From Candidatus Saccharimonadota bacterium (GTDB taxonomy: Bacteria; Patescibacteriota; Saccharimonadia; Saccharimonadales; Saccharimonadaceae): a stretch of 64,000 nucleotides of DNA. The stretch spans positions 47,124 through 111,123 of the forward strand of contig JAILSC010000016.1 of assembly GCA_024697865.1 (NCBI GenBank). Direction: 5' to 3'. Shown one piece after another: positions 5,100 through 22,421 of the stretch (its first letter is position 1; each line of letters begins with the position of its first letter). A program made the translations under genes and the position numbers. A model generated the notes under the pieces. It had not been told where the DNA came from and did not search any database. It saw only the letters and a list, made by a program, of their open reading frames with translations.

Positions 5100-6194
5100 T
5101 TAAGCCTCCATGTTGTTACCATATGGGCTGTTGGTTTTCTTCTTGTTTAATCCTCTTAAAGCCGTCAGCAGAGGGGAAGTTCCGGCTGTTGATTCGGCCA
5201 CTGCCGTCGTTAGGTTAGTATTGCCAGTGTCATAACTTGCTAGATCAGGTGAGTTATAGACTGCGGTTATACCGGTATAGTTCGGTTTACTGAACTCTCC
5301 TAGTCTATTAACTTTGTTGCGATAGTCAGCGAGACGGCTATAAGCGTCGCTGATATCGCCGCCAAAATCACCGCCGTACTGGGCACGATTGCCGAGTGCT
5401 GTGACCAAGTCGGTGAGCAAAGACTGTCCTTTTTCGTAGATTTCTTGCTTTTTCGATTTGACTTGCCCATTGTACCAGTCCTCCAATTTCTTTTTATCGT
5501 TCTCGAATTGATTTTGATAGTTGCCCCAGTCAGTGTCCAGATTAGACTGGTTCTGGGCGTAGGTTTGGCCAGCATTGTTGTACTCTTGGTTAGCTTGCTT
5601 AGTAACCATCCCTGGCGCTTCATATCGTGCTACAGAGCCTCCGCCAGCCCCCATAGCGCCTAAAATTCTTAGCAAGCCACGTAAACCGGAAGAAGCACGA
5701 TTTGTGATGATATTTCGGTTAGTCTGTAGTTGCTGTTGGTTCTGCTTTGTAGAATTGTCGTATTCATTTTTATTAGCATTGTATTGAGATTGTTGCTCAT
5801 TCTTGTAAGTGTCGTATTCACTTTTGACGCCAGCTAGGGCGTTGTCAATTTGCTTATCTATAGTGCCTAAATTGTCTTTGATATCTGATATTTGCCGGTC
5901 ATAGATGTTTATCATATTGCGGTCGGGGGCGCTAGTACTGCCACTTCCCGTGCCAGTAGTATAGTTATATTCGTTAGTGACAGTCGGGTTATTGGCCGGC
6001 GCATTCGGATCTGCGATTTGTTTGTTAGCATCTAAGCCTTGGCGAGATGCAACATTCTGAGTGGCGTAAGTCCCTTTACCAAGGTTCATGACCCCATAAC
6101 CTTCGACATTGGCCCAGATATTGCCATCGCTACCAGACCACCAACGGTAGTCTAGACCTTTTGCATCGAAAGGGTTTAAATTTGTATTTGCCAT
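5100..6194 (-). CDS. Phage internal virion/structural protein (coiled-coil, podophage-like)
   Basis: 364 aa; N/Q-rich coiled coil with a Gly-rich segment (RASSGLRGLLRILGAMGAGGGS); directly upstream of the giant protein; SD TTAGGAG. Confidence 0.6.
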   Translation of the reverse strand: MANTNLNPFDAKGLDYRWWSGSDGNIWANVEGYGVMNLGKGTYATQNVASRQGLDANKQIADPNAPANNPTVTNEYNYTTGTGSGSTSAPDRNMINIYDRQISDIKDNLGTIDKQIDNALAGVKSEYDTYKNEQQSQYNANKNEYDNSTKQNQQQLQTNRNIITNRASSGLRGLLRILGAMGAGGGSVARYEAPGMVTKQANQEYNNAGQTYAQNQSNLDTDWGNYQNQFENDKKKLEDWYNGQVKSKKQEIYEKGQSLLTDLVTALGNRAQYGGDFGGDISDAYSRLADYRNKVNRLGEFSKPNYTGITAVYNSPDLASYDTGNTNLTTAVAESTAGTSPLLTALRGLNKKKTNSPYGNNMEA

Positions 6195-6235
6195 AATAAG
6201 AACTCCTAAGTTGTTATTATTCAGTAAGTCTTAGC

Positions 6236-6256
6236 GTTCTCGTCTTTAAAGTAACC
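6236..6256 (-). promoter_or_regulatory. Phage leader hairpin copy B (conserved 14-nt loop ACTTTAAAGACGAG)
   Basis: Minus strand: CTTAGGTT-ACTTTAAAGACGAG-AAC(G)CTAAG; core GTT/AAC stem given here. Confidence 0.55.
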
Positions 6257-6309
6257 TAAGCGGTCTTAGTTCACTGCTCGCTGCCTGTGCTTGTTTGGGC
6301 TTCCGCAAC

Positions 6310-6331
6310 GCCTCCCGTCTTTAAGGTAGAC
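6310..6331 (-). promoter_or_regulatory. Phage leader hairpin copy A (loop ACCTTAAAGACGGG)
   Basis: Minus strand: GTCT-ACCTTAAAGACGGG-AGGC, just downstream of promoter P1. Confidence 0.5.
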
Positions 6332-6353
6332 TTCAGTGAACCTCAACAATTTC

Positions 6354-6383
6354 ATTATAATCACCCATCCAACCACGCCGCAA
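6354..6383 (-). promoter_or_regulatory. Phage promoter P1: TTGCGG-CGTGGTTGGATGGGTGAT-TATAAT
   Basis: -35/-10 with 18-bp spacer; spacer shared with P2 and P3; upstream of the virion protein leader. Confidence 0.6.
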
Positions 6384-6411
6384 TGATTGACAAATATGTT
6401 ATAATATGGGT

Positions 6412-6666
6412 ATGGAAGTAGTGTTTGGAGTTATATGCATGTTGAGCGGCGCCATCATAGGTATTGGCGTGGCCATTTTAATAGGTAAAAAATGGGGCGG
6501 ATCTAAAAAAATCCCCGATTGGGTACCGGAATTGATTGGAGCTATCCTCGCATTCGGTGGTCTATTTGGTGGGGCCTGGTTTGCCGACGCCTATAAGCAG
6601 TCTATAATAGACCAAACCTATCAGCAAGTGGTTGACTCTGGTTATTGTAACGATCTCAACGATTGA
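6412..6666 (+). CDS. Small two-TM membrane protein encoded against the phage late genes (ATG at 6412, alternative 6406)
   Basis: MEVVFGVICMLSGAIIGIGVAILIGKKWGGSKK..; extended -10 TGTTATAAT at 6397-6405 immediately upstream. Confidence 0.6.
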   Translation: MEVVFGVICMLSGAIIGIGVAILIGKKWGGSKKIPDWVPELIGAILAFGGLFGGAWFADAYKQSIIDQTYQQVVDSGYCNDLND

Positions 6667-6925
6667 TTTTTGTTTCAATTTTTACTATAGACTTCTCAAT
6701 TTCTCCGAATCTCTTGGCATATCCGTTGTGCTCGTCTATTTTTGCTTCCTGTCGTGCCTGATTTTCTTCGATCCTACCCAAGCGATCATCAATTTTTTGT
6801 TCACGTTTAGCCTCTTTGATTTCTTGTTCCTTAGACTTTTTACTTGTTATCATGTAGTTGCCCATCACGGCAAAAATTCCAGTTATTGTTGGCGCTATGA
6901 TAAAGGCTAATATGTCGCTATTCAT
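6656..6925 (-). CDS. Holin-like/phage small membrane protein with coiled-coil tail
   Basis: N-terminal TM (ILAFIIAPTITGIFAVMGNYMI) then charged coiled coil; next to the endolysin; SD AGGAG. Confidence 0.6.
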   Translation of the reverse strand: MNSDILAFIIAPTITGIFAVMGNYMITSKKSKEQEIKEAKREQKIDDRLGRIEENQARQEAKIDEHNGYAKRFGEIEKSIVKIETKINR

Positions 6926-6944
6926 TGTGTGTCTCCTGAAAGAA

Positions 6945-6975
6945 GTAGCGCCTGGCCCGATTCCCCAAGCGCTAC
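6945..6975 (-). promoter_or_regulatory. Stem-loop upstream of the holin-like gene
   Basis: Minus strand GTAGCGCTTGG-ggaatcggg-CCAGGCGCTAC, 11 bp with one G-U, followed by TTCTTTC and the SD. Confidence 0.4.
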
Positions 6976-7108
6976 GAAGTGTGTGTTTAAACGGCTTTTT
7001 TGGTTAATTTTTTGTGTTGCGGTATTGCGTGTGCGATTTGTTAAAGGGGTATGTTGAAAAATTATGCAAGATTTTAAAATGTCCAAACCGGGCCACCGCA
7101 TATCGCTG

Positions 7109-8113
7109 CTACTCCGACCTGTATTCAATGGTGTCGCCAGCGAATAAGCCAACACCGTTAGTGGAAACCCAACCGTCATAGACAGTTAAAAAACGTTGAA
7201 AAGTAGTTGAATACCAATGTTGAGCGTAGTCATTCATAGCTTCGCCCCACTTTACTTCACCCGTGCAAGCTAACATAATCTTGCCGAGTGTATCGCCAGC
7301 TTGAACGTCCCAGACTTTACACTGGTCCGCTGGTTCCGGTTCCGGTGCTGGCTTAATATAGATATTTGGTCTAAATGCTCCGATAAAATCACGGGTAGAT
7401 AGGTTAATGATATTGCCGGCAGCTCCACCACCGGGGCAAGGAGCACCACCTTGATTCTGACCAAGTAGAGTAAAGTATCCATTGTTATACTCACCCATTG
7501 CCATACCAATATGCCCCCATTGGCCAGTAGAATAGACTGCAATATCGCCAGCTTGAATCTGGGTAGGGTCCCAAATCATCGTAAATTGGTCGCCAGCGTT
7601 CTGTTGCCAACACCCCTCGGCAATAGTTCCTTTAGCGGCACCAGTCCCACAAGTGTAGAGCGTGTGGCCAGTGTAGTTGATGAAAAAAGCTGCCATACTG
7701 TCCCAGCACTGCGCCCCGTAATAGCCGTCCACATCTATACATTGGCCTAGCGTTTGATTGGCAAAAGCTTGCGGGCTTGAGATGTCTAGTGTCGGCACAT
7801 AAGCACCTTGGCCACATTCTTCACCCTCTGGGCAGGATTTGTTGTTTACTTCGGTTACTGGCCCACCAGATTCCACAGCTTCCACTGTTGGGATTTCACC
7901 GGTTTCAATCGCTCCTTGGCCGGATTCTTCGGTTATAACTGCCGGCTCTTGCTCGTCGGCATACTCAATTACTGCTGGTCTGATCGTGATGTCTGTTTTA
8001 ATTTCGGTAGACCCGTCTTGGTTGTGTATAATCACAACAGACCCAACGGCCCCGAGCGCTACAAGTAGTGCCGTAGCGATTGTAGCTATGATTTTGTTCC
8101 GTTTAAGTTTCAT
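7109..8113 (-). CDS. Endolysin: N-terminal signal/anchor, CHAP domain, LysM-like C-terminus
   Basis: Start MKLKRNKIIATIATALLVALGAVGSVVI preceded by AAGGAGG; CHAP pattern (AQCWD..., GDIAVYSTGQWGHIGMAMG); C-terminal WDVQAGDTLGKIM. Confidence 0.75.
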   Translation of the reverse strand: MKLKRNKIIATIATALLVALGAVGSVVIIHNQDGSTEIKTDITIRPAVIEYADEQEPAVITEESGQGAIETGEIPTVEAVESGGPVTEVNNKSCPEGEECGQGAYVPTLDISSPQAFANQTLGQCIDVDGYYGAQCWDSMAAFFINYTGHTLYTCGTGAAKGTIAEGCWQQNAGDQFTMIWDPTQIQAGDIAVYSTGQWGHIGMAMGEYNNGYFTLLGQNQGGAPCPGGGAAGNIINLSTRDFIGAFRPNIYIKPAPEPEPADQCKVWDVQAGDTLGKIMLACTGEVKWGEAMNDYAQHWYSTTFQRFLTVYDGWVSTNGVGLFAGDTIEYRSE

Positions 8114-8144
8114 TTGCCTCCTTCTGGGATTATTTGTCACTTCC

Positions 8145-8174
8145 ATAATAACCACTCATCAAGGCACGGCGCAA
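8145..8174 (-). promoter_or_regulatory. Phage promoter P2: TTGCGC-CGTGCCTTGATGAGTGGT-TATTAT (endolysin)
   Basis: Same architecture and spacer as P1 and P3; 5' leader carries AGAAGGAGG before MKLKRNK. Confidence 0.6.
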
Positions 8175-8177
8175 CCA

Positions 8178-8258
8178 AAAGCCAGCTCAACGGCTGGCTC
8201 TTGGACTATAAAATAGATCATACATAGCAGGGCTTGGTGGGCATAGCGCCCTACTATA
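8178..8258 (-). ncRNA. Candidate phage ncRNA between P3 and a terminator-like hairpin
   Basis: Begins just after P3; internal hairpin ATAGTAGGGC...GCCCTGCTAT; ends AGCCAGC-cgttga-GCTGGCT-TTT. Confidence 0.4.
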
Positions 8259-8264
8259 GTTCAT

Positions 8265-8294
8265 ATAGTAACAACCCATCCACCCATAGTGCAA
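8265..8294 (-). promoter_or_regulatory. Phage promoter P3: TTGCAC-TATGGGTGGATGGGTTGT-TACTAT
   Basis: Third instance of the shared promoter/spacer motif. Confidence 0.55.
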
Positions 8295-8325
8295 CACCAA
8301 AATGTCAGTTGTGTTATAATAGATG

Positions 8326-8370
8326 AATAGGCTAGTTCCGCATCTGCGGTTGTCCACTAGCCTATTTTTT
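8326..8370 (+). ncRNA. Candidate very short plus-strand transcript: extended -10 TGTTATAAT (8312-8320) followed at once by an intrinsic terminator
   Basis: AATAGGCTAG ... CTAGCCTATT 10-bp stem enclosing CCGC-ATCT-GCGG, then TTTTTT. Confidence 0.45.
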
Positions 8371-8541
8371 GTTTTTCCAGCGAGCAGCTGCGGCAGCTTG
8401 TGCACGTTTTTTGCGCTCTTCCTTTGGTATATTATTGACGATATTAGCCCCCTTGCGTCTATCTTCAATCATCTTATCGTACAATAAGGCTTTTTTGTAG
8501 ATATCTTCAAAATATTTCTTGTCTACTGTTATATCTGCCAT
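8362..8541 (-). CDS. Small basic phage protein (59 aa), unlisted in the ORF track
   Basis: MADITVDKKYFEDIYKKALLYDKMIEDRRKGANIVNNIPKEERKKRAQ..RWKNKK; SD AGGAAAT. Confidence 0.5.
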   Translation of the reverse strand: MADITVDKKYFEDIYKKALLYDKMIEDRRKGANIVNNIPKEERKKRAQAAAAARWKNKK

Positions 8542-8564
8542 TTATTTCCTTTCTGGTGTATATT

Positions 8565-8984
8565 TTACCCGTATAGTATTTTTTTGGCTAGTTCATATTT
8601 AGCAATTCGTCTTTTATTCAGGCCGCTAGATCTACTTGGGCTAGTATTATGGGCTAGATCGGCTTTTTTTACTGCTAGCGCCATTGGATCAGCCTTAATT
8701 CTTTGTAGATATTCCTCATAGGACATTTTTGGGGGCTTGGTGAGGATCACCACTACTTCTACTAAGTATTCTGGTATCCCCTTTTCTATAAGCTCTCCGG
8801 CCGTTGTCTCGGTGTCTTCTATTACATCGTGGAGAAGTGCAACGGTTTTCAGATCTAAATTGTCTAATTGGGCCGCTACGGCAAGCGGGTGGAGAATATA
8901 TGGGTTGCCCTGTTTGTCTATCTGCCCGGAGTGGGCAGATAGAGCTATTTGCAGAGCGGTTTCGAAAACTTTGTTCATGTTCAT
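8565..8984 (-). CDS. HD-domain small alarmone hydrolase (RelA/SpoT hydrolase/Mesh1-like)
   Basis: ALQIALSAHSGQIDKQGNPYILHPLAVAAQL...VALLHDVIEDTETTAGEL...VKKADLAHNTSPSR: signature of the SpoT HD hydrolase family. Confidence 0.85.
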   Translation of the reverse strand: MNMNKVFETALQIALSAHSGQIDKQGNPYILHPLAVAAQLDNLDLKTVALLHDVIEDTETTAGELIEKGIPEYLVEVVVILTKPPKMSYEEYLQRIKADPMALAVKKADLAHNTSPSRSSGLNKRRIAKYELAKKILYG

Positions 8985-8997
8985 GGTTGCGCTCCTT

Positions 8998-9603
8998 TTA
9001 AACTACTCTTAGTCCATAGTTATCATAAATGCCCCTATCGAAATAATCGGTCATAATGTCGCTGTGGTCGCTGTTGTATGCGTTCACCACTTGCTTACAA
9101 GCCTTAAACACTTGCTTGCCAAAGTCCGACAAAATCTCTTCTTTGTCTATATGATAGCTGCTTATGTTCACGTCACCTTTAATGCTAGCGAGCACTGCGT
9201 CCGCCGTTTCGTTTTCTATCTGTCGCTGTTCCTCGTCTGGTCTTGAGCGGTAGTCTTCCCAATAAATGCCAAACGTCGCTCCGACCCAGTTCCGGCGCCC
9301 GTGGCGCATGCTGTCAATTACTCGCCCCCTGATTTCCTCGTCTGTTGCTATAATATCGCTGTGCCTGTCTGCTTTTACCGTAATATAGAGGCTGGTGGTA
9401 TAACCGCCCCGCCCTTTTCGGACAGAGATGCCTGATTTTTTCAAAGGTCGCTCGCCCTCGCATAACACTTTTTGCAGGTCTTGCCTTATTGCTTGCGTCA
9501 ATTCTTTTCCATATAGATTTTGATTCTGGTTCCCAGTCCAGCCGTCATAGGGGGCTGTGCCTGTTGCTTTCACACCAAATTTTTTTAAATAAGTTGTGTT
9601 CAT
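8998..9603 (-). CDS. LPD29-like (large polyvalent protein-associated domain) phage protein
   Basis: GKELTQAIRQDLQKVL...ISVRKGRGGYTTSLYITVKA... and NSDHSDIMTDYFDRGIYDNYGLRVV resemble LPD29-type sequences from memory. Confidence 0.45.
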   Translation of the reverse strand: MNTTYLKKFGVKATGTAPYDGWTGNQNQNLYGKELTQAIRQDLQKVLCEGERPLKKSGISVRKGRGGYTTSLYITVKADRHSDIIATDEEIRGRVIDSMRHGRRNWVGATFGIYWEDYRSRPDEEQRQIENETADAVLASIKGDVNISSYHIDKEEILSDFGKQVFKACKQVVNAYNSDHSDIMTDYFDRGIYDNYGLRVV

Positions 9604-9642
9604 CTTATTGTCCTTTCGATGATTATTATTTATTACACCCCT

Positions 9643-9671
9643 ATTTTAGCACGCTAGCGAGCATATGTCAA
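9643..9671 (-). promoter_or_regulatory. Sigma70-type promoter TTGACA-17-TAAAAT for the LPD29/HD-hydrolase unit
   Basis: Minus strand TTGACATATGCTCGCTAGCGTGCTAAAAT. Confidence 0.6.
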
Positions 9672-9709
9672 TAGTTTTTTTGGACTTTTTTTAAAAGTTT
9701 TCCACAACC

Positions 9710-9830
9710 AAAAAACCACCACCTAGCTCCACGTTATCTTGAGTTCAGTGGTGGCCGAGTCATCGGTGCAACTGCGTAGCCATAGTCTATATTACTAACG
9801 GTCCACACACCGAGTTTTCTCTCAGCTGTA
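9710..9830 (-). ncRNA. Candidate ~120-nt structured phage ncRNA with own promoter (TGGTATAAT at 9836-9844) and terminator
   Basis: Terminator stem CCACCAC...GTGGTGG (9716-9754) followed by TTTTTT; TCGGTG/CACCGA and TAGT/ACTA internal pairings; no plausible ORF. Confidence 0.5.
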
Positions 9831-9845
9831 ATTCTATTATACCAC

Positions 9846-9877
9846 AAAAAACCGCCTCGCAGTGAGAACGGTTTTTT
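9846..9877. terminator. Bidirectional intrinsic terminator after the capsid gene
   Basis: AAAAAACCG-cctcgcagtgagaa-CGGTTTTTT. Confidence 0.75.
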
Positions 9878-9937
9878 GTCGTCTAGATTGACGGTTGTTA
9901 TTACTGTTGTACTTTCATTGTATCATATTTCTATGAA

Positions 9938-10783
9938 TTAGGCGCTTGGAGTGGTGCCAGTGATAGAAGCAACAGCTTTCTTCTTAGCAGCTAATACAAA
10001 CGTATCATAGATGAATCGGCCAGTGAGTACCGCACCGTCAACAAGCTCAGAATCCTCTCGGATATCGGTCTTGTGGATTTGGCGAGCACCAAGCACGGCT
10101 TTCTTCTGCCAGATAACGGCTAGAGTGTTAGCTGGGAAGTAGGTGGAAGGGACCTTGATCACGGCCATTCCGTCTAATTCACCAACAAAACCACGAGGAA
10201 CTAGCTTGTCATTGTATCCGTTAGCATATACACCAGTAGTGATATCCTTCTTGATTTCGTTGTAGAAGGCAGGAGTGACGAACATCGCACGATCGTTGAT
10301 TGGAGCCTTGGCTTCATCCAAGTAAGCGCTAGCTTTCAACACAGCTGCGTAAGCGTTGCCACTACCAGCAGTGTAAGAAACAGCTTGGTTGTTGGTTGAA
10401 GCAGCGGTCGCTGCGGTTGCGATTCGGTCGGTGTCGATTTCAGGAATTACCTGTTCGTCCATTTGAGCTCGCAATACTTGACCAGCTTTCTTAGCCAAAG
10501 CACCTTGCAAGTAGTTGCCACGATCAATAGCGATCTTGAAACACTTGTCATTTGCCAATTGGTAAGTAGCTACAGTGTCTTGCAATTCAGCGTTACCACC
10601 AAAGCGGTCGCCAGTTGCACTACGGTTGTAGTTAGAAGTTGCTACGGTTGTTGGGGTGTAAACATTGATTGTCTGAACTCCGTCGAAGTCATAATCACGG
10701 TTTACGAATTTATCAGTATAAGAGCCATGAGCGAATGCTACGTCCATTTTGCTCGAATACTTTTCTGCTAAATGTACAGTCAT
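9938..10783 (-). CDS. Major capsid protein
   Basis: 281 aa; capsid-like composition and position after portal and scaffold; ...NDRAMFVTPAFYNEIKKD...LDGMAVIKVPSTYFPANTLAVIWQKKAVLGARQI...; strong RBS. Confidence 0.75.
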   Translation of the reverse strand: MTVHLAEKYSSKMDVAFAHGSYTDKFVNRDYDFDGVQTINVYTPTTVATSNYNRSATGDRFGGNAELQDTVATYQLANDKCFKIAIDRGNYLQGALAKKAGQVLRAQMDEQVIPEIDTDRIATAATAASTNNQAVSYTAGSGNAYAAVLKASAYLDEAKAPINDRAMFVTPAFYNEIKKDITTGVYANGYNDKLVPRGFVGELDGMAVIKVPSTYFPANTLAVIWQKKAVLGARQIHKTDIREDSELVDGAVLTGRFIYDTFVLAAKKKAVASITGTTPSA

Positions 10784-10823
10784 TTTTCTGCATTCCTTTC
10801 TTTTGGGTTAGTTGATGAAGCAA

Positions 10824-11699
10824 CTAATCACCTAAGAAACCAGCAAGGAATTCGTCGTCCTCTTCTTTTCGGGACGGGGCTTTAGTAGAGCTGCCAACAT
10901 CTGCGTTATTTAGCATATCAAGCGCAGCCTTACGGCCAGAAGTCTTACCACCAGCTTTGCCGGACGCTTCAGCTTTGGCTATCGTAGAATACAGCTTATA
11001 TGGCGAAACTCGTGAACCAATTACTTGGCCAGTCTTTTCGTCGGTTATGAGCGAATTCTTCATCAGCTCGTCGGCTGCCATAGTCAATTCGGCATTGTAT
11101 TGGTCAGATTCTGGATCGAAAATCGGGAAGTCTCTCACTACTTGGTTGGCTTCACTCGATATTCTAGTAACATTGTCGGCCACTCGCTCTACGTATTCTG
11201 CGAACTCTCTTTGTTGTTCCATGGCGTCTAGACGCTGGCTCAAGCGAAGGTTCTCAGCTTCTGCTCGGGTATAATAGTCCCCAGTTTGTGGGTTTATTTG
11301 CCCGATTAGAGATTCTACCGTCGGGATATCCTGGGCCGTCTTCAAGTCATACTTCTTTCGGCTCAGCTCGGCGATTTCGTCTCGTAGAGCATTGCGCTCT
11401 GCTACCTTGTCTCTGATTTCTGTGTTAAGTTGCTGTTTTCGTGCATCTGCACGGCTTGACGTTTCTTCTGACTCAGTAGATTCAGATTTCTCTTCCTTCT
11501 GAGCTTTTGGCTCCTCTTTAGGTTGAGATTCCTTTTCAGGAACTTCCTTTTCGGAAGTATCTGTCTCGCCCGTAAACCCGAGAACGAACTCATCGCCATC
11601 AGAATTGTCGGTGCCGGTATTGGTTTCTACGGTTGGCGCTTCCGTTGTAGTGGTTTCGGCTTCCACTGGTCCTTTTACGCCGGCGGCTTCTTCTGCCAT
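10824..11699 (-). CDS. Scaffold-like phage protein
   Basis: Acidic, coiled-coil, T/E-rich N-terminus; located between portal and capsid. Confidence 0.6.
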   Translation of the reverse strand: MAEEAAGVKGPVEAETTTTEAPTVETNTGTDNSDGDEFVLGFTGETDTSEKEVPEKESQPKEEPKAQKEEKSESTESEETSSRADARKQQLNTEIRDKVAERNALRDEIAELSRKKYDLKTAQDIPTVESLIGQINPQTGDYYTRAEAENLRLSQRLDAMEQQREFAEYVERVADNVTRISSEANQVVRDFPIFDPESDQYNAELTMAADELMKNSLITDEKTGQVIGSRVSPYKLYSTIAKAEASGKAGGKTSGRKAALDMLNNADVGSSTKAPSRKEEDDEFLAGFLGD

Positions 11700-11760
11700 A
11701 ATTTATCTCCTTTTACTTTTTACGACTGTTAGGCGTCGATTCCTTTGGGGCGAGATAGCC

Positions 11761-11803
11761 CCTGTTGTGCTCCCCACGAAGGGATAAAGAGGAGCACGAC
11801 AGG
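11761..11803. promoter_or_regulatory. Strong intergenic stem-loop upstream of the scaffold gene
   Basis: CCTGTTGTGCTCC / GGAGCACGACAGG, 13 bp with one wobble/mismatch; no U-tract. Confidence 0.5.
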
Positions 11804-11810
11804 AATTACC

Positions 11811-12113
11811 TCATAGTTTCTTGGCATCGAACATTTTGACCTTATTTTTAATAACACTTAGCTCACGTCTTAGGACTGTACATACTTCCTTATTGACGGC
11901 CACTTCTCGCATAAACTCTTCAGGATTACTCGAGTTTTTGATTGAGTCAATTTTCTCTAGCTTTTCGATATCCTTCTCTAGGCGCTCCATGACGGCCGTG
12001 ATTAGCGGCCGTTCATGTTCGTAAGCGTTCTTGTCTTGCTGGACTTTTTTGCGTTGTTTCTTAGTAGGTTTTATCAGCCTTTCAGTGCTGACTTGGTAGA
12101 AATTATCTTCCAT
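11811..12113 (-). CDS. Small coiled-coil phage protein
   Basis: 100 aa, overlaps the portal stop; MEDNFYQVSTERLIKPTKKQRKKVQQDK... Confidence 0.55.
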   Translation of the reverse strand: MEDNFYQVSTERLIKPTKKQRKKVQQDKNAYEHERPLITAVMERLEKDIEKLEKIDSIKNSSNPEEFMREVAVNKEVCTVLRRELSVIKNKVKMFDAKKL

Positions 12114-14010
12114 TTACTAGCCTTTCTAGTCGTTCTACGACCTGTTCTGGTGCAGTTCCGTTCTGCACTGCGTCTATAGCCTGCACAATAACGTCGTCTG
12201 GCACGCCTCTAGCCCGCAGAAGGGCAACTACTTCCTGTACTGACGTTCCGGTAGGTTCTTGGACTTGCTCAGCCTCTACGGAACCATTATTCACGGATCC
12301 TGGCGTCATTTGCTGTTCTTGTTGCGTTTCTTCATTCATTGCCAGCTGTTCAGTATCTACAGTTAGGTCTTCTGGGTCTTCTACGCCACTATTGACGACG
12401 ATTTTATTCCAACAAGCGGCCAATTTTTCTGGTGGTACAATTTGCGATAGGGAAGGGGTAGCTGCAATTTGTAACAACAGTTGCAAAGCTTCTAATTGTT
12501 CTGACTGACCATTTAATTTCGAGGTGGACGCATCAACACGGAATCTCAGAGCTGGGGTAGCCGTAGAATAGTCAATTCTGATTTTATTATCGTCGCTGAC
12601 GAACCCTTCCGGAAGTTTGCCCTCTTCCTCTAAAGCACGTAACTTGTCTGCGGTCTTTTGGTCTAGTTGTAGGATTTCTACGCCCTCACGCTCGGCAAAG
12701 TAGACGTTGATAGCGGTCTCGGCCCAATTTTCAAAGAATGACTCGAAGTTCTTGCGGATGTAGTTGTCTTCTGCCGACATAATCTCTTTTTGCTGTTTCA
12801 GAGCAGTCGGGGTCTTACCAAAGCCAGGATTGCCTACTTCAGCGCTAACTGTAGTATCACCACCGGTGTTGAATAGGGAATAAAGCTGGGTTTTGTTTAA
12901 TGCATAAATATCCGGATAGTTGGCTATAGCCGAAGTATCTACTGATAGCGGCACAATCTTGTTATTAGCGTCGCTACCCATTTCAATTAGTCCATTCGCT
13001 TCATAGATAGCTTGGGTAGTATCTACGTTGCCGTATACCATAACTGGTGGTGCTAGTCCTAGAGCTCGGTTGAACTTGTAAGCTCTCATATCGGCGTCAA
13101 TCATGTTCTGCATACCACCAACGATTTCAATAATTGAACGGCCAAATGGATTAGAGCCGTCTACGTCAGAGTAGAAGTAGTCTACTGGTGGTAAGCCACG
13201 TGGATCTTTATTTTTCTTGCGTCGGACGATAGTGCCGTCACTGCCTTCACTAGCTGGGCACCCAGTAAAGAAGATCGCCCCTACCCCCTTCTGGAAACCA
13301 ATTACTACCTCAATACCGGTGGTGTTGATACCAAGTCTCTCTTCTTCTCGGGTCTTGGCCTGGTGATCTTTTGAAGTTATCTGGGTCTTGACTTCTTTGA
13401 GCGCTGCGACATCCCAAGTTGATTCATATTTCTCGCCGTTCTTCTTAGCTTCTTTGGCCATTGCCTTGTCGGCCTCTAGAATCTGGTCAATAGTCTCTGG
13501 TTGCCACCATGAACGCATAAAGAAGTAATCACAATCATAGAAGGACTTTTTGCCGGGTTGGAAGAATATGTCACCCCAGTAAACTAGGGTAGCATCGGTG
13601 GTGAACTCGTTGCCATGTTTCAAAAATGGGGTGTATACAGCCTGACCTCCAACTATTTGGCCATTTTCAACAGTTGACCAGAATTTCTGGATCAAGTCAT
13701 AGTCAGCGTTAGCGTACGGTATAATTTTGTTTAATAAAATGAACTCTGCTATGATTGGCAACCAGTCATTATCGTCATCTGACGTTACAATACCGGTTGG
13801 CAGTTGTTGAATAACCCGCTTCGGGGTTTTGCGTATTAGTGCTGCAGTAGTACCGTCTGAGACTCGTGCATATTCCGGCGGAGTGCCAGCTTCTGTTTCA
13901 TTTCTAGCGATGCGAACATACTCGTCAAATGGTTCCGTCCATTGTTCGGTCCAGTCTACAGCTTTGTTGTATTTTTTCCAAAAGTTTGTTTCAGTAAGAA
14001 ATTGATTCAC
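12103..14010 (-). CDS. Portal protein
   Basis: 635 aa; follows terminase; ...GQIVGGQAVYTPFLKHG..., ...VDYFYSDVDGSNPFGRSIIEIVGGMQNMIDADMRAYKFNRAL..., typical podophage portal features. Confidence 0.75.
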   Translation of the reverse strand: MNQFLTETNFWKKYNKAVDWTEQWTEPFDEYVRIARNETEAGTPPEYARVSDGTTAALIRKTPKRVIQQLPTGIVTSDDDNDWLPIIAEFILLNKIIPYANADYDLIQKFWSTVENGQIVGGQAVYTPFLKHGNEFTTDATLVYWGDIFFQPGKKSFYDCDYFFMRSWWQPETIDQILEADKAMAKEAKKNGEKYESTWDVAALKEVKTQITSKDHQAKTREEERLGINTTGIEVVIGFQKGVGAIFFTGCPASEGSDGTIVRRKKNKDPRGLPPVDYFYSDVDGSNPFGRSIIEIVGGMQNMIDADMRAYKFNRALGLAPPVMVYGNVDTTQAIYEANGLIEMGSDANNKIVPLSVDTSAIANYPDIYALNKTQLYSLFNTGGDTTVSAEVGNPGFGKTPTALKQQKEIMSAEDNYIRKNFESFFENWAETAINVYFAEREGVEILQLDQKTADKLRALEEEGKLPEGFVSDDNKIRIDYSTATPALRFRVDASTSKLNGQSEQLEALQLLLQIAATPSLSQIVPPEKLAACWNKIVVNSGVEDPEDLTVDTEQLAMNEETQQEQQMTPGSVNNGSVEAEQVQEPTGTSVQEVVALLRARGVPDDVIVQAIDAVQNGTAPEQVVERLERLVNGR

Positions 14011-14032
14011 TCATTCGTGCCTACTTCCCGTC

Positions 14033-14056
14033 GGTTTCTCGTCTTTAAAGTAAACC
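14033..14056 (-). promoter_or_regulatory. Phage leader hairpin copy C (loop ACTTTAAAGACGAG)
   Basis: Minus strand GGTTT-ACTTTAAAGACGAG-AAACC at the predicted 5' end of the portal transcript. Confidence 0.55.
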
Positions 14057-14068
14057 AAGCTTAATTTC

Positions 14069-14098
14069 ATTATATTCCGTATTCCGCCCCAGTGTCAA
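14069..14098 (-). promoter_or_regulatory. Phage promoter P4: TTGACA-18-TATAAT (portal operon)
   Basis: TTGACACTGGGGCGGAATACGGAATATAAT, then GAAATT identical to the post -10 sequence of P1. Confidence 0.6.
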
Positions 14099-16460: not shown

Positions 16461-16750
16461 TATTTACCTCCGTTTATTTCGATATTATTTTGGATCTCAT
16501 CATCGCTCATATCGAGCGCAGAGTCTATATTTGCCTTACATTCGCCTTCGTCCCGTCCATACAATACACATATTCGTTCGGCTGCCGATCTGACACTCTG
16601 GTTTGTAACTAGCTCGTGGTATAGCATAGCAATTGAAACCCCTACCACAAATGTCAGTAAAATGTGCATCGTCTCTTTGCCTAGCCAACGCAACCTTTTG
16701 TGGCCTTTTCTCTTGCTCCAAGCGTGTATCTCTGTATAGCTCTTAGTCAT
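16460..16750 (-). CDS. Phage single-TM hypothetical protein
   Basis: 96 aa; TM MHILLTFVVGVSIAMLYHELV. Confidence 0.5.
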   Translation of the reverse strand: MTKSYTEIHAWSKRKGHKRLRWLGKETMHILLTFVVGVSIAMLYHELVTNQSVRSAAERICVLYGRDEGECKANIDSALDMSDDEIQNNIEINGGK

Positions 16751-17051
16751 GTTCCTTCTTTGATTTTATCCGTCCATCGCCCCGAGCGGGTAGTCTTGCC
16801 TCTTTAATATAGCTCGTAACTCCAAACCGGTTAGCGTATTTATAAACGTCGAAAATGCTTTGTAAGTTTGCTCTTTTCATTTCTTTTCTAAAGTCCTCCC
16901 AGATTTTGTAGTAGCCGTTCGGTGCGCCATATCGATGGAATACTACTGTCATAGTTGGTGTCTCGACTATTACGGTGTATGCCCCACCGAATATGACCTT
17001 GCCCCAATTTAGCTTACGTTCCTTTTGTGACCCAGCTTTGAAACGTCCCAC
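16743..17051 (-). CDS. Phage hypothetical protein
   Basis: 102 aa, overlaps the next gene by a few bases. Confidence 0.45.
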   Translation of the reverse strand: MGRFKAGSQKERKLNWGKVIFGGAYTVIVETPTMTVVFHRYGAPNGYYKIWEDFRKEMKRANLQSIFDVYKYANRFGVTSYIKEARLPARGDGRIKSKKEHD

Positions 17052-20509: not shown

Positions 20510-20604
20510 CCTATTACTCCCGTTATTACTAATATCCCCATACAGAACAGGAACCCGAGACCGAACCCAACCATGAAAATGTCGCCTTTATTACTCTTAT
20601 CCAT
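20506..20604 (-). CDS. 32-aa TM micropeptide overlapping the GT2 start codon
   Basis: MDKSNKGDIFMVGFGLGFLFCMGILVITGVIG; TGA overlaps the ATG of GT2 (ATGA). Confidence 0.4.
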   Translation of the reverse strand: MDKSNKGDIFMVGFGLGFLFCMGILVITGVIG

Positions 20605-21025
20605 TTATACTCTCCCTCTTTCCGAATAACTTAGCAAAGAATTTTTGCTCTTGTTTATCATTTTCTTTCAAAGCTTTTTTAGCTTCTTTTTCTTCAGCCA
20701 TTTCTCGTTCTTTTCTAACTCGGTAGTATAGTGTGCTCTCAGGTATTTTTAGATATTCAGCCATTTCTCGAATTGAGCAGCCATTTTTATATCCGAGCAT
20801 CACTTTGTCACGGACCTCAAGCCAGCGTTCATTTTTAGCAATACTCCTACGAGATTTAGAACCGCCTTTTCGGCCAGCAATTCGTGCCGCTTCCGGATTC
20901 GATGCGAACCCCCCAGTATGTCCTTTTTGACCACCAAGTTTACCGATTCTTTCATAATAGTCTAGACCATGCTCTTTGTAGATTGTATTGCGGGCCTTTA
21001 TCCCGCCAATTTTGGTACCGCTCAT
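20597..21025 (-). CDS. KGG-motif/HTH phage protein
   Basis: GGQKGHTGGFASNPEAARIAGRKGGSKSRRS plus HTH CSIREMAEYLKIPESTLYYRVRKE. Confidence 0.65.
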   Translation of the reverse strand: MSGTKIGGIKARNTIYKEHGLDYYERIGKLGGQKGHTGGFASNPEAARIAGRKGGSKSRRSIAKNERWLEVRDKVMLGYKNGCSIREMAEYLKIPESTLYYRVRKEREMAEEKEAKKALKENDKQEQKFFAKLFGKRESING

Positions 21026-22061: not shown

Positions 22062-22421
22062 TTATCTCCCTACTTTCTCCTTTATTAGCAGGTAACGAAT
22101 CACCCTTTTGTCTCGTCTCAGCTTATTCTCGAACTTAGCCCGGTTTTTAAGCCCCTTGACGTTCCAGAAGTAGTAATAAGCCTCTGTTTCGTCCTCAATT
22201 GGGTAAGCTAACTGTTTCCGGCCGTCGTCTTCAAATAGCCAAATCATGTCACAATATTTTTTTAGTTCTTCGTCTATATCGCTGATAAATTTGGTCTGAT
22301 CGTAGTCTACTTGCACCAGCACGGTAAGCTCGTAGAATTCGGCGTCATCTTGCTCTGTGGCGTCAATTTCGCCGTCTTCCATAGCGTCCCAGTTAGCTTG
22401 CTTGATTTTACTCATCTTCAC
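22062..22421 (-). CDS. Phage hypothetical protein
   Basis: 119 aa in cluster. Confidence 0.45.
   Translation of the reverse strand: MKMSKIKQANWDAMEDGEIDATEQDDAEFYELTVLVQVDYDQTKFISDIDEELKKYCDMIWLFEDDGRKQLAYPIEDETEAYYYFWNVKGLKNRAKFENKLRRDKRVIRYLLIKEKVGR

Follow-up and report, generated by a model that had tools for sequence, protein, structure and literature searches.

Late genes and promoters of the prophage

The window (the whole stretch of 64,000 nucleotides analysed here) belongs to a host genome of 709 kb in 26 contigs and overlaps an integrated tailed-phage prophage of ~32 kb, which runs from the integrase at contig position 38.9 kb to about 70.7 kb. Read leftwards, the prophage is arranged as early region, g102, terminase, portal, head protein (a match to PHROG 422), HD-domain protein, endolysin, s364, and tail genes; the features discussed below are collected in Table 1. 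Its head and tail modules are collinear, with the endolysin in between, whereas in relatives (window 5100-14010 compared with L088, L089, and L091) they are convergent. Among the other prophage proteins, one encoded at 22062-22421 (minus strand) contains a clear ribosomal protein S6 domain (Pfam E 6e-12) and has a homologue in the G300 prophage, and a KGG-motif protein (20597-21025, minus strand) is conserved in many of these phages, with a C-terminal extension carrying a helix-turn-helix (HTH) only in the window and L085 versions among those compared.

Table 1. Features of the late region and of related loci (positions refer to the window unless another locus is named)
Feature	Position	Strand	Description
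P1	6354-6383	minus	-35 TTGCGG (6383-6378); 18-bp spacer CGTGGTTGGATGGGTGAT with box (6377-6360); -10 TATAAT (6359-6354)
P2	8145-8174	minus	TTGCGC / CGTGCCTTGATGAGTGGT / TATTAT
P3	8265-8294	minus	TTGCAC / TATGGGTGGATGGGTTGT / TACTAT
P4 (portal promoter)	14069-14098	minus	TTGACA / CTGGGGCGGAATACGGAA / TATAAT
s364, virion-associated gene	5100-6194	minus	Under P1; role suggested by its place ahead of the tail genes
Endolysin (CHAP domain)	7109-8113	minus	Under P2; longest ORF starts at 8155, RBS supports ATG at 8113
Portal protein	12103-14010	minus	SU10-type, weak Pfam match; under P4
g102	16743-17051	minus	102 aa, family without known relative; candidate box-reading factor
Leader hairpin, copy 1	6304-6336	minus	Downstream of P1; bulged A, loop UAAAGAC
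Leader hairpin, copy 2	6229-6261	minus	Downstream of P1
Leader hairpin, portal leader	14028-14060	minus	Just downstream of P4
Leader hairpin, relatives	L007 2719-2751; L121 8027-8059; L086 18337-18416		
Body of P3 short RNA (predicted)	8202-8258	minus	Folding z about -4 with terminator; start placed from the -10
Terminator-like hairpin	8178-8201	minus	Between P3 and P2; AGAGCCAGCC..GGCTGGCTTTT

The original prediction had placed three promoters here, P1 to P3, and their coordinates, sequences, and 18-bp spacers were exactly as it gave them; its remark that the portal promoter P4 lacks the GATGRGTG box of the other three was likewise confirmed. P1 lies ~150 nt upstream of s364 and precedes the tail operon, and P2 lies directly 5' of the endolysin ribosome-binding site and start (AGAAGGAGG, ATG at 8113). 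No gene stands directly behind P3, which is followed by a short structured stretch, a terminator-like hairpin, and then P2, 120 bp away. P4 has the 18-bp spacer and a 12/12 match to the hexamers, and is set apart by its perfect -35 and by a weak fit to the window phage's own box (6-8/18 versus P1-P3). On the plus strand, the extended -10-like sequence TGTTATAATA occurs at 6397-6406 and 8312-8321, 13-17 bp away from the P1 and P3 -35 elements; a small membrane-type ORF (6406-6666) follows the first copy, and the second runs into a terminator-like hairpin.

A spacer box that changes from phage to phage

The shared spacer box proved real. In a spacer-blind search of the prophage (spacers of 15-20 bp, TTG-type or 4/6 -35, 4/6 -10, both strands), the best triple fell at 18 bp, with pairwise identities of 11, 13, and 13 of 18, a sum reached by 0 of 150 first-order Markov simulations. 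The best single pair in the window, at 13/18, is matched by the top simulated value (13 in 30 runs; mean of maxima 11.5), so that two sites alone would not be convincing. The pattern TTGC-N10-GATGNGT-N2-TTAYTAT, which was derived from the P1-P3 sites themselves, matches only P1, P2, and P3 in the window at up to three mismatches (chance mean 0.51), and across the 709-kb genome the 30-bp motif returns these three sites, all in the prophage, and two three-mismatch matches. The box core occupies spacer positions ~3-12 of 18 (~ -27 to -21) and ends ~6 bp from the -10.

Searches with portal, s364, tail, and head genes led to four viral contigs (G200, G482, G483, and G484) and two same-genus prophages (G142 and G062) as relatives, and to G362 and G250:C1 as outgroups. 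Upstream of the late genes of the relatives, we again find a -35, 18 bp, and a -10, with a spacer sequence that varies by phage: GTTCC-type boxes occur in G483 and ahead of s364 and portal in G482, and GGTCTC-type boxes in G142. The genes behind these phage-own boxes are portal, tail, and lysis genes, and the lysis box of G482 differs from that shared by its s364 and portal promoters (4-7/18). By inspection, the outgroup promoters at the same genes are of a 17-bp or extended -10 type. The original expectation that the motif would be enriched in related phages holds for phage-specific equivalents of the box and fails for the literal GATGRGTG: the literal motif matched at about the chance rate in viral_contigs (2 matches) and genome_contigs (9), the seven matches inspected lay inside open frames, and G142 was the one relative with GATGGGTG. 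For the same reason, namely that the box differs between phages, a matrix built from the three window sites alone found no match in the first relatives.

In four phages, the best-sharing pair of ORF-proximal promoter-like sites, whatever the spacer length, fell at 18 bp; it reached 13/18 in the window, 14/18 in G142, 13/18 in G482, and 14/18 in G483, against ~11/18 at most other spacer lengths. With a leave-one-phage-out 30-bp matrix, the held-out late promoters ranked 1-4 per phage, except P3 at 23 of 222,188. Since the -35 and -10 hexamers at 18-bp spacing alone already place most late promoters high, including the box improves the ranking across phages only modestly, and the evidence for it comes mainly from within phages. 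A spacer-only matrix ranked poorly across phages because the boxes are phage specific.

The same promoter layout extends to four (L173, G245, G300, and G266) of the phages with a different portal family that were reached via distant g102 homologues. G266 is the clearest of the cases: its 700-kb genome contains AGCACCCGTASGAAAT-TANNAT five times, exactly; every copy lies in the prophage, on the same strand, and the five precede portal, two tail-region genes, the endolysin, and the gene after g102. Its best pair shares 17/18 (simulated maximum, 12), and all five copies preserve the 16-bp box, which abuts the -10, despite variation in the -35 region and the flanks. A TTG-type -35 is missing at three of these five promoters and at one G300 promoter; in the blind test, neither the G300 nor the G245 pairs were conspicuous. 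All 28 promoters listed, from 11 phages, have G at spacer position 4, a count that is partly circular because the L173, G245, and two of the three G300 promoters were found by a matrix favouring G at this position, and one that represents about seven independent box types with hexamers partly assigned by eye; the first G266 promoters came from inspection of the sequence upstream of portal and endolysin. As P4 and its orthologues have the common 18-bp architecture and position-4 G, two late classes separated by the box, as originally supposed, are not supported.

An arrangement of another kind was seen near the integrase of G250:C1, where two TTGACA-17-TAnnnT sites (offsets 31417 and 33095 of the analysed stretch) share a dyad-like spacer (AAACGCCCAAGGTTTGC / AACCGCCTTTGGTTTGC) and are probably a repressor operator pair.

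Candidate factor and late-leader RNAs

Two protein families were missing from the outgroups and seen in all or nearly all box phages then sampled. One is a glycosyltransferase, not seen in one box phage whose contig is partial; the other is g102, a family of 14 members with 23 invariant positions among seven close homologues. A g102 HMM matched in all 11 box phages and in none of the box-less G362, G250:C1, G202, L010, and L011. A weak homologue is present in G338, G342, and G228, in which no second box copy was found, and G250:C37 and G332 are fragments. The AlphaFold2 model of g102 has a four-strand, two-helix, one-strand fold (pLDDT 78, pTM 0.66). No family in Pfam, NCBIfam, or PHROGs scored above noise, and no DNA-binding fold was recognisable; Foldseek searches with two g102 models gave nothing below E 0.9 in the PDB and, among viral models, only uncharacterised proteins as top matches. 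That g102 might bind DNA is a guess from its distribution. A second candidate, g142, has a weak HTH resembling sigma region 4 and was rejected, as this HTH is absent in most box phages.

The portal or s364 leaders of the window phage and its near relatives carry a conserved hairpin with a bulged A, CYU/GRG pairs, and the 7-nt loop UAAAGAC. Its pairing is supported by covariation, with two-sided changes in 5/8 pairs, 89% of cells pairing, and a score reached by 0/500 shuffles. Among phage loci, the covariance model matches only in these portal/s364 leaders, and over 246 genomes all matches above 31 bits fall in one of them; the loci checked among weaker matches in other genomes had no phage-gene relatives nearby, and matches to TTAAAGACG in L008-L010 lay inside a conserved gene and were not this hairpin. 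Within the phage portion of the window, Rfam returned nothing. As outgroup leaders seem to carry similar hairpins, the element probably predates the box. Possible roles are that of a translational operator or of a site where an RNA-bound antiterminator loads.

Short RNAs and terminators form a second feature of some leaders. P3 would give ~55 nt before the terminator, and G300 independently has the same layout of box promoter, short RNA, terminator, second box promoter, and gene. A short structured RNA with a terminator between tandem box promoters thus recurs in two distant phages (window 8178-8258 and L191 about 9917-9980, both minus strand). The G300 portal promoter also has a terminator-like hairpin immediately after it. 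No homologue of the P3 RNA was found in other loci, beyond a 16-nt chance match. Between promoter and gene, no terminator was seen at P2, at the G142 lysis promoter, or at those G266 promoters whose gene begins no more than 50 nt away. Q and AlpA need a pause element; here, a -10-like pause element near the start is present at 6/28 promoters versus a 16% background (5-of-6 matches, 4/28 versus 7%) and is not clearly enriched. The phage proteins scanned against PHROGs and Pfam included no antiterminator family, a search that distant homologues could escape.

A proposed phage-coded late switch and its alternatives

That boxes are common to unlinked promoters within a phage and differ among phages of one host genus is better explained by a trans factor that the phage encodes than by a host preference. 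The sites, their register, their phage-specific sharing, and their association with late genes and with g102 are features of the sequences themselves; from them we infer the start sites, the binding of a protein, the identity of that protein, and activation. We propose, with moderate confidence, that P1-P4 form one late-promoter class in which a phage-coded protein, with g102 as the candidate, binds the spacer box and switches on virion and lysis transcription. Host RNA polymerase with a sigma70-type factor would recognise the -10 and, where present, the -35, and the phage protein would bind about 6-14 bp upstream of the -10, inside the 18-bp spacer. If each phage has its own box-factor pair, the box would change between phages and the register (18-bp spacer, position-4 G, about -27) would stay. 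These phage-own tags at one fixed place suggest a dedicated late-gene switch protein in every phage, matched to its tag. The factor would most likely help initiation where the -35 is weak or missing, and it may in addition let RNA polymerase read through early terminators such as that following P3.

How much of this is activation and how much antitermination depends on signs that point both ways. In pure promoter-loaded antitermination, as for lambda Q or AlpA, the promoters would be constitutive, transcripts would stop at terminators, and the box would serve only to load the antiterminator. The box is placed where QBE, ABE, and the putative ZBE lie, and the P3 layout with its independent counterpart in G300, including the hairpin after the G300 portal promoter, fits this explanation. 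Against it stand P2, the G142 lysis promoter, and the close-start G266 promoters, where no terminator was seen before the gene, and the three G266 promoters without a -35, which should not fire unaided; the pause element is not clearly enriched, and no match to Q or another antiterminator was found among the phage proteins scanned. We regard it as rather unlikely. Given the missing -35s of G266, where no terminator was seen before the gene, and the weak -35s at P1-P3 on one side, the P3 and G300 layouts on the other, and a pause element that is not clearly enriched, the reading that we prefer is a late factor bound in the spacer that assists initiation and perhaps antiterminates as well.

Three other explanations rank lower. 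A repressor operator, serving to keep the late genes silent in the lysogen, would suit a phage that has an integrase and sits in the host genome, and temperate phages normally have phage-specific operators; yet the boxes show no dyad symmetry or inverted repeat by inspection, unlike the G250:C1 pair, a weak or absent -35 fits activation better, and repression does not need a strict register to the -10, which makes this improbable. Slightly less probable still are ordinary host sigma70 promoters whose spacers are alike through recent duplication or a host spacer preference. That hexamers at 18 bp suffice to rank most sites high and that P2 and P3 are only 120 bp apart would be expected on this basis, but not that boxes differ across phages of one host genus while being common to unlinked promoters within a phage, that the G266 box is retained where its surroundings vary, that the window motif is absent from the rest of the genome bar two three-mismatch matches, or that box-less relatives have other promoters before the same genes. 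The original prediction also allowed for a phage activator or repressor site or a modified RNA polymerase. The same-register boxes on lysis and virion genes of relatives bear out a phage-specific regulator site, whereas a phage sigma factor or RNA polymerase reading the entire 30-bp element appears very improbable: although the element spans -35 to -10 and g142 has its weak HTH, the -10 remains TATAAT-like, the one sigma70-region-2 protein of the genome is encoded outside the prophage, the g142 HTH is missing in most box phages, and no single-subunit RNA polymerase (PF00940) was matched in the genome, a search in which the control genomes were also silent.

Among known systems, a binding element between -35 and -10 is described for lambda-type Q, with its phage-specific QBE (PMC6606751), the ABE of AlpA (PMC9371919), and the putative ZBE of GafZ (PMC11150451), and a conserved element in this place, with a putative bound factor, is also what we find. 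The short RNA and terminator of P3 ahead of a lysis gene further recall pR'; unlike in lambda, no Q-like protein was found among the phage proteins scanned, several promoters rather than one are involved, the pause element is not clearly enriched, no terminator was seen at most promoters, and the -35 is missing in some relatives. In Pseudomonas aeruginosa (AlpA) and the Caulobacter GTA (GafZ), the short element loads the factor onto RNA polymerase, and GafY-GafZ couples activation to antitermination; g102, however, resembles no Pfam, NCBIfam, PHROGs, or PDB family, and the host group and element sequences differ. Sigma appropriation by T4 MotA likewise combines a phage box with a sigma70 -10, with a -35 that is dispensable in some of our relatives, but in T4 the centre of the box lies at -30, 12 +/- 1 bp from the -10 (PMC2988021). 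The box here is nearer to the -10, and a TTG -35 is retained in the window promoters; no MotA or AsiA homologues were seen among the subset of phage proteins scanned. Phage Mu C is a small phage activator that turns on several late promoters via host RNA polymerase (PMC4461284), and no C-like protein match was seen here.

We suggest, tentatively and as a possibility only, that g102 represents a new transcription-factor family, unrelated to Q, AlpA, GafZ, and MotA, that loads onto host RNA polymerase via the 18-bp-spacer box and co-diversifies with it, and that the leader hairpin forms a second component of the switch, at the level of RNA. The literature searched contained no account of how phages of these small-genome bacteria control their late genes. 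If the proposed switch is true, a conserved register, swappable boxes, and one candidate factor of ~100 aa would make a compact system in which to study the takeover of RNA polymerase by a factor bound between -35 and -10. Annotation of such phages would gain a late-gene signature, and the box-factor pairs would form a natural set for specificity swaps in laboratory reporters.
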